From: Candidatus Falkowbacteria bacterium S5_I03
Lineage (GTDB): Bacteria > Patescibacteriota > Patescibacteriia > Patescibacteriales > UBA12465
Assembly: GCA_019248265.1 (NCBI GenBank)
Contig: JAEHGX010000008.1
Span: 1-64,000, forward strand
Length of the DNA: 64,000 nt
Direction of reading: 5' to 3'
The stretch's first letter is position 1, and each line of letters begins with the position of its first letter. The notes beneath the pieces are model-generated. The model did no database searches and was not told where the DNA came from. It saw only the letters and a program-made list of their open reading frames with translations. Position numbers and translations under genes: made by a program. Below are positions 3,389-59,872 of this stretch, piece after piece.

Positions 3389-3417
3389 ATTATAAAGTTT
3401 TTAAATATTAAAAGCAA
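3389..3417 (-). promoter_or_regulatory. Sigma70-type promoter for trxB
   Basis: On the minus strand TTGCTT (3417-3412), a 17-nt spacer and a perfect TATAAT (3394-3389) precede trxB with a leader of roughly 47 nt. The wider gap 3336-3615 otherwise holds only AT-rich sequence, one TTATCCACA 9-mer and a weak terminator-like hairpin. Confidence 0.6.
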
Positions 3418-11895: not shown

Positions 11896-12028
11896 GGGGT
11901 TATTAAAAATAAAACAGAATAGAAAATAAAAAACAAGATAAATTTTATTATCTCTGTTTTTTTCTGTCTATCTCGGACCTTAAAAAATCAATAGTACTAA
12001 ACAATCATGGTGATGGTTAATTTTGATG

Positions 12029-12047
12029 CTAATTGGCATCGATTCGG
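12029..12047 (+). other. 5' arm of the 16S pre-rRNA processing stem
   Basis: CTAATTGGCATCGATTCGG in the leader pairs along its full 19 nt with CCGAATTGGTGCCAATTAG at 13709-13727, using two G-U pairs. The two arms bring the ends of 16S together, the arrangement cut by RNase III in bacterial pre-16S RNA. Confidence 0.8.
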
Positions 12048-12128: not shown

Positions 12129-13612
<1,484 letters not shown>

Positions 13613-13708
13613 TAGGGAGAACAATTCTTCTTTTCCACGTGGAAAGAAGAGTTAGTCGCCTCTAACTTAGTGTTAGAGTGGCTATATTCTTCGGAATTAT
13701 AGCAAAAA

Positions 13709-13727
13709 CCGAATTGGTGCCAATTAG
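13709..13727 (+). other. 3' arm of the 16S pre-rRNA processing stem
   Basis: Partner of the arm at 12029-12047. The spacer between the 16S 3' end and this arm contains further hairpins (TTCTTTCC-type arms at about 13628-13651, and TCTAAC/GTTAGA at 13662-13678). Confidence 0.8.
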
Positions 13728-13757
13728 ACTCACAATTCATTGCATGATTGTCAAAAG

Positions 13758-13782
13758 ACCACCCGTAAAAGGTGGTTTTTTG
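13758..13782 (+). terminator. Intrinsic terminator ending the 16S transcript
   Basis: ACCACC/GGTGGT with an 8-10 nt loop is followed by a run of T. It lies about 145 bp after 16S and 30 bp beyond the processing arm, showing that the transcript ends without a 23S gene. Confidence 0.85.
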
Positions 13783-13825
13783 TTGTGATAATAGCCATAA
13801 TTAGTGATTTAAGGCCCAATAATCA

Positions 13826-13854
13826 TTGACATTATTAAGAAAATGTGATATATT
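13826..13854 (+). promoter_or_regulatory. Promoter of the membrane protein/Nudix operon
   Basis: A perfect TTGACA (13826-13831), 17 nt and TATATT (13849-13854). The first stem arm of the leader begins 38 nt after the -10 box, almost the same spacing as at 59153-59221. Confidence 0.7.
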
Positions 13855-13891
13855 TAAAAGTTAGACTTTGGTCTTTAACAAACAGGTTAAC

Positions 13892-13956
13892 TCAAATTAA
13901 TTACTAAGGATATCTTCTTTACACAAGATAGAAGGTGTTTTTAGTAATTAATTTGA
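13892..13956 (+). promoter_or_regulatory. Structured leader element, copy A
   Basis: The perfect 16-bp inverted repeat TCAAATTAATTACTAA (13892-13907) / TTAGTAATTAATTTGA (13941-13956) encloses a 33-nt loop that itself can pair TATCTT with AAGATA. The start codon follows 26 nt later. The 12-nt core ATTAATTACTAA, its complement and the loop start GAT..TCTTC recur in the leader at 59220-59287, where the outer base pairs differ but still pair. Confidence 0.6.
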
Positions 13957-13982
13957 ATGTATAACCTTAAAAACAAATTGTC

Positions 13983-14255
13983 ATGGAAGAGAAAACCATT
14001 TTTGTTAAGTTGCGTCGGATTGCACAAATATTTTTTTCACTAATAGCTGTATTTGTGACTATCTTTTTGACCTTGGCGACATGGAGCGCTGAACCATATG
14101 CCCCAATTTTCTTAAAATGTCTTGTTACTTTTATTGTATTTGTGCTCTGTTCTTGCGTAAGTATAGTTATATTTAATGCCTTATTTGGAAAAAGAAAAAA
14201 CACAGCAACCCACAAACAACGTAAAAGAAAAACAAAAAAATCCACCGCGCAATGA
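13983..14255 (+). CDS. Small membrane protein with basic tail (unknown function)
   Basis: 90 residues with two predicted transmembrane helices (about 16-34 and 41-66) and a strongly basic C-terminal tail (KRKNTATHKQRKRKTKKS). I do not recognise a family. The ATG at 13983 follows the structured leader. The stop TGA overlaps the ATG of the Nudix gene by four bases (ATGA), so the two are translationally coupled. Tail and helices suggest an inner-membrane protein with a cytoplasmic nucleic-acid- or phospholipid-contacting tail, but that is inference. Confidence 0.6.
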   Translation: MEEKTIFVKLRRIAQIFFSLIAVFVTIFLTLATWSAEPYAPIFLKCLVTFIVFVLCSCVSIVIFNALFGKRKNTATHKQRKRKTKKSTAQ

Positions 14256-14770
14256 AACACTATGCGATTGAAAATGATGCTCCGGTTGACCTGGAAAAAA
14301 TGAAGCAAGATGGTTTTATGCCAGAAAATGAGTACCGCTCCGCCAATGCTAACCTGGTGTTAGCTTGCCACGATGTATTCATCAAATATGCCGATGGCAT
14401 ACTACTTGTTAAGCGTAAAACCAAACCGGCTATTAATGTCTGGTGGCCCCTCGGCGGTCGGATTCTTAAAGGATTCTCTAATGAAGAATCCTTAAGTAAA
14501 CGAGTCGAGTCCGAATGCGGGCTTAAATTAACCAACATCCAGGAAATCGGATGTTCCCGGGTAATTCTCGGAACCGATCCCTTCGGACATGGGAAAGGCG
14601 TTGATGCGATTGCGGTCGTCTTCTACGCCGAAAGTATTGGTAATTTAAATTTGGATCAATTTCATTTTGATCCGCAAATAATTACTCCTGCAACCTACAC
14701 GGAAGAATTCCGTGAAACTCTTCACCCGTATGTGCGGGACTATATGGATATCGCCATTGCTAAATTATAA
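14252..14770 (+). CDS. Nudix-fold hydrolase with degenerate Nudix box
   Basis: 172 residues with the Nudix layout. VFIKYADGILLVKRKTKP leads to WWPLGGRILKGF, then a helix ending RVESECGL. The canonical GX5EX7REUXEEXGU box is eroded: the GE after the first Gly reads GF, RE reads KR and EE reads SE. GDP-mannose mannosyl hydrolases and some DUF4916-like relatives also have altered boxes, so activity on a nucleotide sugar or similar substrate is possible, but canonical pyrophosphatase activity is doubtful. It overlaps the preceding membrane protein gene and is followed by a strong terminator. Confidence 0.68.
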   Translation: MKHYAIENDAPVDLEKMKQDGFMPENEYRSANANLVLACHDVFIKYADGILLVKRKTKPAINVWWPLGGRILKGFSNEESLSKRVESECGLKLTNIQEIGCSRVILGTDPFGHGKGVDAIAVVFYAESIGNLNLDQFHFDPQIITPATYTEEFRETLHPYVRDYMDIAIAKL

Positions 14771-14792
14771 AGCAAAACGATAAACAAAATTA

Positions 14793-14832
14793 AAAGAGCG
14801 ACCAATCAAACGGCCGCTCTTCTTTTTTTTAA
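14793..14832 (+). terminator. Intrinsic terminator of the membrane protein/Nudix operon
   Basis: AAGAGCG/CGCTCTT, with a 14-nt loop, is followed by CTTTTTTTT. It separates this operon from the convergent gene at 14837-16204. Confidence 0.85.
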
Positions 14833-59152: not shown

Positions 59153-59181
59153 TTGACATATTTATTAAAATATGCTATTGT
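59153..59181 (+). promoter_or_regulatory. Promoter of the 184-residue membrane protein
   Basis: TTGACA (59153-59158), 17 nt and TATTGT (59176-59181). The first leader-stem arm begins about 39 nt after the -10 box, as in the promoter at 13826. Confidence 0.65.
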
Positions 59182-59219
59182 TTAGTCATTAAAAATAGAA
59201 CATTCACAAAAAAGATTAG

Positions 59220-59287
59220 ATTTGATTAATTACTAAGATCGTCTTCCGCGGCTGGCGGATTTAGGCGGATTTAGTAATTAATCAAAT
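59220..59287 (+). promoter_or_regulatory. Structured leader element, copy B
   Basis: A perfect 17-bp inverted repeat has arms ATTTGATTAATTACTAA (59220-59236) and TTAGTAATTAATCAAAT (59271-59287) and a 34-nt loop with an inner CCGC/GCGG hairpin. The start codon follows 30 nt later. Relative to copy A at 13892, the core is identical and the outer pairs are swapped in a compensating manner. Confidence 0.6.
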
Positions 59288-59317
59288 TAACAGTAATCTT
59301 AAAAAAAACGTAAAAAG

Positions 59318-59872
59318 ATGGAAACAACAATTAGTATTATGGTTATCGGGTTTGTCGTTTTGACAATTGTTTATGTAGAAATGTTTATGCATCGGAAGCC
59401 CCTAACAGAAAAAGAAATTTCCGATTATCAAAAGACACTGGACAAAATAAACGCAAGTTTAAAGACAAACCATGGCCTTGAATTAAAGTATGAAGCCAAA
59501 GCTCAACTTCTTGAGGAAAGGAGGCAGACAAAGGCGTCTGTCCTAATTTTTGCCGGAATGTTTGTCGCCTCAGCTCTCGTATTATCGATTTTTATAAAGG
59601 TCCCGTCCTTTACTAATATCGGAATAATGTGCGTAAGCGCTATAATGCTTATCTGTTATGGAATTATTAAAATGTCAGAATCAAAGAAATTGGCTATTGG
59701 GCTTTTGTTATTTATTTTTATCTTTGGAACATTGGCAAAATTTGCCTTTGATAAATTAATGGTGATGTCTCCAAGTGTTTATTTTTATCTATGCCTGCTT
59801 ATAGTAATAGTAAGTATCGGTGGTGTTGTAATTAACACCGATTGTACGGCATTAAAAGCCAAAAAACTTTAA
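59318..59872 (+). CDS. Multi-pass membrane protein (unknown function)
   Basis: 184 residues. One N-terminal helix (about 5-22) is followed by a charged, helical cytoplasmic or external segment (about 28-70, rich in Glu, Lys and Leu) and four further membrane helices. No family is recognised. Like the 90-residue protein at 13983 it starts with ATGGAA and is preceded by the paired leader element, so the two genes are probably regulated alike. A terminator follows. Confidence 0.6.
   Translation: METTISIMVIGFVVLTIVYVEMFMHRKPLTEKEISDYQKTLDKINASLKTNHGLELKYEAKAQLLEERRQTKASVLIFAGMFVASALVLSIFIKVPSFTNIGIMCVSAIMLICYGIIKMSESKKLAIGLLLFIFIFGTLAKFAFDKLMVMSPSVYFYLCLLIVIVSIGGVVINTDCTALKAKKL

Follow-up and report, generated by a model that had tools for sequence, protein, structure and literature searches.

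The RNA element boxA is the binding site of NusB-S10 and a signal otherwise of ribosomal-RNA operons. Its published consensus reads GYTCTTTAANA (PMC5725501). In the rrn operons of Escherichia coli, boxC lies 18-19 nt past boxA, within a helix of 25-40 bp that overlaps an RNase III site, and boxA holds boxC near the polymerase so that this long helix can form (PMC10250234).

Sites of this kind before protein genes are already known, in a few genes per species. On the E. coli suhB mRNA, a Nus complex bound to boxA represses translation, probably by drawing the start region into a loop; autoregulation of lambda N is similar, through Nus-dependent translational repression (PMC5725501). Baniulyte et al. 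looked for boxA sites no more than 50 bp from a start codon.

Gene regulation in Patescibacteria is barely known, and for most of their accessory genes no function has been assigned. The stretch of DNA analysed here (64 kb of a Candidatus Falkowbacteria genome, hereafter the window) carries two members, leaders A and B, of an undescribed family of structured mRNA leaders, the boxA-hairpin leader. Each combines a boxA near the predicted start of the transcript with a long conserved hairpin before the start codon of a membrane protein gene.

Leaders A and B

The transcription unit of leader A comprises the following features, in which PWM scores refer to the boxA matrix described below.

13826-13854, + strand: sigma70-type promoter, TTGACA (13826-13831), 17-nt spacer, TATATT (13849-13854); 11/12 matches
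13868-13883, + strand: boxA, TTGGTCTTTAACAAAC, the top PWM site of the whole window (17.2 bits)
13884-13889, + strand: 5' arm of the basal stem, AGGTTA, from the fold; helix 1 has six compensatory pairs
13892-13907, + strand: 5' arm of the long stem with the near-invariant TTAATT core, from the fold and covariation
13908-13940, + strand: inner stem (ATATCT.../...AGGTGT) and variable apical loop, from a 27-nt extended repeat, the fold and covariation
13941-13956, + strand: 3' arm of the long stem, from the fold and covariation
13962-13967, + strand: 3' arm of the basal stem, TAACCT, from the fold
13983-14255, + strand: gene A, a 90-aa small membrane protein with no Pfam family above cut-off
14252-14770, + strand: NUDIX-domain gene, sharing 4 nt with gene A
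14787-14829, + strand: terminator hairpin ending the unit; the hairpin is bidirectional and its scoring came from the - strand

Leader B is built alike.

59153-59181, + strand: promoter, TTGACA-17-TATTGT, with the -10 box at 59176-59181
59196-59211, + strand: boxA, TAGAACATTCACAAAA, the second-best PWM site of the window (15.2 bits)
59212-59300, + strand: hairpin of basal stem (AAGATT/AATCTT), long stem, inner stem and loop, from the fold and covariation
59318-59872, + strand: gene B, a 184-aa membrane protein

An initial annotation had paired the two loci as promoter-linked inverted repeats at a fixed distance from an ATG, and its coordinates were reproduced at both. In leader A the arms form a perfect 16-bp repeat with a 33-nt loop and 26 nt to the ATG at 13983, as had been described; the gap from the -10 box to the stem is 37 nt and not 38. 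Leader B has 17-bp arms (59220-59236 and 59271-59287), a 34-nt loop and 30 nt to the ATG at 59318. The shared GAT..TCTTC, previously taken for the start of the loop, is in fact the 5' strand of an inner stem. Pairing beyond the arms had been missed altogether, both in a basal AAGRTT/AAYCTT stem and in this inner nnnnRUCU/AGGYnnnn stem. Both leaders fold far more stably than shuffled sequence (z = -6.2 for A and -8.3 for B), with none of 200 shuffles equally stable in either case.

Extent of the family

Around 110 copies of the leader were found in the window's family, Ca. Falkowbacteria (Patescibacteria), a lineage of ultra-small bacteria. They are spread over 34 of the 39 genomes, with up to about ten in each; the genomes are draft assemblies. 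This genome has three, namely leaders A and B and a copy at 118945-119035 of contig C10. The exact arm pair recurs in 8/39 family genomes and the reversed control in none, so the pair is not a matter of chance. A covariance model built on eleven leaders (R1) was positive in the 34 genomes, with at most 13 matches in each, some of them opposite-strand readings of one site, and a best E-value of about 1e-16. Across the order it added a single genome from another family (G076, 7 matches), while a weak match elsewhere in the order was rejected. A refined model (R2), run on 381 genomes of the class, was positive solely in the window's family and G076. Named relatives confirmed by the models are mostly Candidatus Falkowbacteria.

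Several candidate matches were discarded. Lone occurrences of ATTAATTACTAA elsewhere in the genome have no partner arm and were attributed to chance. The covariance model confirmed none of the 26 viral contigs that carry the arm pattern, and by the same measure most pattern matches outside Falkowbacteria and unnamed Patescibacteria are chance. One locus upstream of an HU-like protein (L151) was judged a false match.

The remark that no named riboswitch fits the two leaders agrees with Rfam (release 15), in which no family matched them above its gathering threshold; permissive thresholds returned sub-threshold matches alone, nearly all of them microRNA-type hairpins. The annotation had also stated that its proposal would fall if related genomes held no further copies or if the arms proved to be a mobile palindrome outside leaders. 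Neither was found, and the copies are sense-oriented upstream of genes. What stands of its interpretation is a repeated, promoter-linked 5' leader of constant spacing. Nothing points to a riboswitch, and the annotation had overlooked the boxA that both leaders share with the rRNA leader 1.9 kb from leader A.

Anatomy of the module

The module keeps one order and one orientation: promoter, boxA, 19 nt, a hairpin of about 25 bp, about 30 nt and the ATG. A sigma70-type promoter precedes 89% of the leaders, compared with 13% in shuffles. In 68 of 112 leaders the end of its -10 box is 15-19 nt 5' of the boxA C. The predicted 5' end is at most about 10 nt away from boxA. Downstream, the distance from the boxA C to the stem is 18-19 nt (10th-90th percentile), that from boxA to an invariant UUAAUU segment is 14-15 nt, and that from the 3' arm to the ATG is 29-33 nt (interquartile), with start codons mechanically assigned. 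The inter-arm spacing varies between leaders. An intrinsic terminator lies within 150 nt past the stop of 77/106 genes (3 in shuffles), and most units hold a single gene. No repeated sequence was found beyond the promoter and terminator of the units.

The absence of a Shine-Dalgarno sequence was considered as a special trait of the leader genes and rejected, given its presence before 13/112 of them and 3/47 background genes. That such a sequence precedes so few background genes of the window is an observation in its own right, though the 3' end of 16S retains CCTCC. At one locus in a relative (L023:514-1478, - strand, G005 contig C30), the leader has no normal ATG after it; at the customary spacing stands ATAAAAAAG, in frame with a lipoprotein-like product.

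A conserved RNA structure

Covariation was assessed in a MAFFT alignment of 77 leaders. The family hairpin measures about 25-31 bp and carries a variable apical loop; 90% of alignment cells pair, and 28 of the 31 predicted base pairs show both-sided changes. Compensatory cells number 267, against 74 in shuffles, and none of 500 shuffles reaches the observed values, although the rows are related and the counts are not probabilities. Structures slid along the alignment fail the same test. In addition, G·U pairs outnumber A·C mismatches about fourfold in the family stems (273 vs 67). A DNA palindrome would not give such an excess of G·U over A·C; together with the compensatory changes, it shows the conserved object to be RNA. 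Within the stem, the UUAAUU/AAUUAA segment is nearly invariant while the flanking stem covaries.

The leaders show no riboswitch expression platform: there is no U-run 3' of the hairpin and no Shine-Dalgarno sequence to mask, and the start region is unpaired. A riboswitch or attenuator reading was rejected on the lack of a platform and on the unrelated protein clusters downstream, 89 in number.

boxA in the leaders and in the rRNA leader

The 5' end of the leaders follows the consensus tAGttC[T/A/G]TTnA[A/C]AAA, which fits the published boxA. Its G and C are each conserved at 92% and the TT at 96-97%, followed by AnAAA. A PWM was derived from 77 leader rows, leaders A and B included, and on both strands of the window it scores leaders A and B highest, followed in third place by the rRNA leader, which lay outside the training set. 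Since these are the top three, boxA is not a general feature of 5' UTRs here. When the same matrix was applied, as an independent check, to the 300 nt upstream of 16S at 26 family loci, about 19 had their best site 129-163 nt before the gene. The identification of the leader motif as a boxA is thus strongly supported. In the window, the rRNA leader contributes two features.

11973-11988, + strand: rRNA-leader boxA, TCGGACCTTAAAAAAT, the third-best PWM site of the window
12029-12047, + strand: 5' strand of the 16S leader-trailer helix, whose 3' strand is 13709-13727; 19 consecutive pairs

The sequence of the leader hairpin is unlike the family's rrn sequence 3' of boxA.

Some further features of the rRNA loci deserve mention. 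Between promoter and boxA, the rRNA leader has a hairpin followed by seven T at 11932-11966 (ACAAGATAAATTTTATTATCTCTGTTTTTTTCTG). Many relatives also have a CTCTGTTTTTTTCTG-like stretch in their 16S leaders, which resembles an attenuator within the rrn leader. Downstream of the 16S rRNA gene itself (12129-13790) come a terminator-like hairpin of its own and protein genes in place of 23S; the rRNA operon is split. At L174, L175 and L184 (in G038 and G034), 16S genes are over-long or matched piecewise, suggesting insertions.

Downstream genes and turnover of units

The 111 genes downstream of the leaders form 89 protein clusters, 76 of them singletons. The initial view that the leaders precede small membrane proteins of unknown function was right; the products are orphans, chiefly membrane-bound or secreted, with a membrane or signal segment in 75/111 of them and in 10/33 of the background. 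At most 18 of 110 leader genes have a Pfam match, an upper bound as the scan lists families and not members, compared with 26/30 window background genes of similar size. No functional theme or shared function that would call for co-regulation with rRNA was found among them. Phage or defence cargo was considered and rejected, as the 110 proteins matched just 12 PHROG families and one PADLOC family, each with a single member.

Units come and go between relatives. In G015 (L156) the whole unit is absent beside 16S. In G006 (L165:1210-1290, - strand) the promoter of leader A and a boxA, CAGTTCATTGAAAAAT, with a PWM score of 17.2, stand directly before the NUDIX gene, and both the hairpin and gene A are missing. 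This locus is a natural deletion or a pre-insertion state, and it shows boxA and hairpin to be separable, as the former is kept there without the latter. Homologues of gene B are confined to 3/39 genomes, and all four found in the family are preceded by the leader. In G076, three units of promoter, boxA, hairpin, gene and terminator stand in tandem; in the same region (L150:400-3600), a gene without a leader, at 3406, resembles the neighbouring gene at 2554.

Possible function

NusB scores above the TIGR01951 cut-off in 37/39 family genomes, G000 included. A true Rho was not found in the family genomes, where matches to the model reach at most 57 bits against a cut-off of 509. Each genome has two of these sub-cut-off matches, which are as large as F1-ATPase subunits. 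It is therefore unlikely that the leader serves as protection from Rho.

The best reading, to which we give an even chance, is a Nus-factor leader resembling that of rRNA that gates the translation of accessory genes, with a mechanism and direction that we infer. It is favoured because the leader copies the rrn layout in miniature, with boxA, 14-15 nt and a helix. NusB-S10 is predicted to bind boxA as it emerges from RNA polymerase and to tether the leader to the polymerase, as in rRNA operons. The helix that follows would be a local copy of the leader-trailer helix, acting as a co-transcriptional clamp, and its hairpin, judged by substrate size, is a likely target of RNase III. For as long as the Nus complex stays on the RNA, the start region would be enclosed in a tethered loop and hardly accessible to 30S subunits, as with suhB and lambda N. 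The mRNA would be freed once the hairpin is cut or released, or once nascent rRNA draws NusB-S10 away. In this way the expression of accessory surface genes would depend on the current state of rRNA synthesis, through either repression or enhancement. Counted against such a gate are the persistence of boxA without the hairpin in G006, the lack of a common function among the genes, and a hairpin unlike that of rrn. More tentatively, and at somewhat below an even chance, the leader may be a miniature rRNA leader that bacteria without detectable Rho have attached to numerous orphan surface genes, a set that changes quickly, coupling their expression to free NusB-S10.

Processive modification of RNA polymerase is an unlikely alternative, in which boxA and hairpin load Nus factors as a positive, nut- or rrn-like element and let the polymerase move through AT-rich, poorly translated accessory genes more quickly or with no pauses. 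An rrn-type boxA at the 5' end of every unit would fit such a role. In lambda nut, too, a hairpin accompanies boxA; the rrn complex needs no more than boxA (PMC10250234). However, its usual target is missing where no true Rho was found, the single-gene units mostly end at a terminator soon after the stop, and a fixed distance from hairpin to ATG is unexpected of an elongation signal.

It is quite improbable that the hairpin serves to shield the mRNA from 5'-end-dependent decay, in the manner of ompA, with the A-rich boxA-like stretch merely an unstructured initiation or standby region. Its strong fold, its position about 30 nt or less from the predicted 5' end, and the unrelated genes downstream would suit a stabiliser, which nonetheless needs neither the nearly invariant UUAAUU of the stem nor the G..C.TT.A.AAA motif found also in rrn leaders, a motif missing from the window's other 5' regions. 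At least as doubtful is a binding site, either for an uncharacterised RNA-binding regulator peculiar to the lineage or, as an aptamer, for a small molecule, in which boxA would play a secondary part. A near-invariant segment within an otherwise covarying stem and the sharp taxonomic limit are what such a site might show, yet the leader lacks the multi-branched core of an aptamer, neither a terminator nor a Shine-Dalgarno platform is present, and the genes have no functional theme in common. A DNA-level element, whether palindromic operator, integration site or mobile repeat, might explain the palindromic arms and the patchy, cassette-like units, but is very improbable and already contradicted by the compensatory changes and G·U excess, by the sense orientation before a gene of all copies analysed, by variable arm spacing, and by the lack of any repeat beyond promoter and terminator.

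If the reading as a miniature rRNA leader is true, the regulon would be set by ribosome-biogenesis factors (rRNA synthesis, 30S assembly) and not by a transcription factor. The leader would link accessory genes to ribosome biogenesis and the Nus factors in a lineage that yielded no true Rho, and Rho-independent roles of boxA on mRNAs become testable. As it is recognisable by sequence alone, it also marks accessory genes and supplies a usable covariance model.

Comparison with known systems

In Rfam and the literature searched, no leader family was found that joins boxA to a covarying, conserved long hairpin over dozens of orphan families in bacteria with no detectable Rho. LoaP- and RfaH-type processive antitermination leaders are likewise promoter-proximal RNA elements with a hairpin; they use a NusG paralogue on long operons, whereas the units described here are single genes with an rrn-type boxA. 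The lambda nut/N leader (nutL, structured RNA, N start) also has boxA followed by a hairpin. In contrast to it, the present leaders have no small boxB-type hairpin with a small loop, only a stem of 25-31 bp with conserved sequence; no N protein is known, and the regulon is chromosomal.

Leaders of the suhB type share a boxA in the 5' UTR of a protein gene, near the start, where the Nus factors of suhB control translation. They differ in several respects. Here a long conserved hairpin lies between boxA and start, and the two are about 100 nt apart in linear sequence, not within 50 bp. Rho-dependent termination after repression has no counterpart here, as no true Rho was found. suhB-type leaders also occur in few genes per species, whereas the present family counts about 110 copies over some 89 unrelated clusters.

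The rRNA boxA-boxC leader belongs to rRNA operons, while these leaders precede protein genes. Their helix closes locally on the mRNA, and its conserved segment is UUAAUU, not boxC. Even so, the arrangement is the same in both: boxA, a short spacer (14-15 nt here, 18-19 nt in E. coli) and a conserved segment inside a helix.
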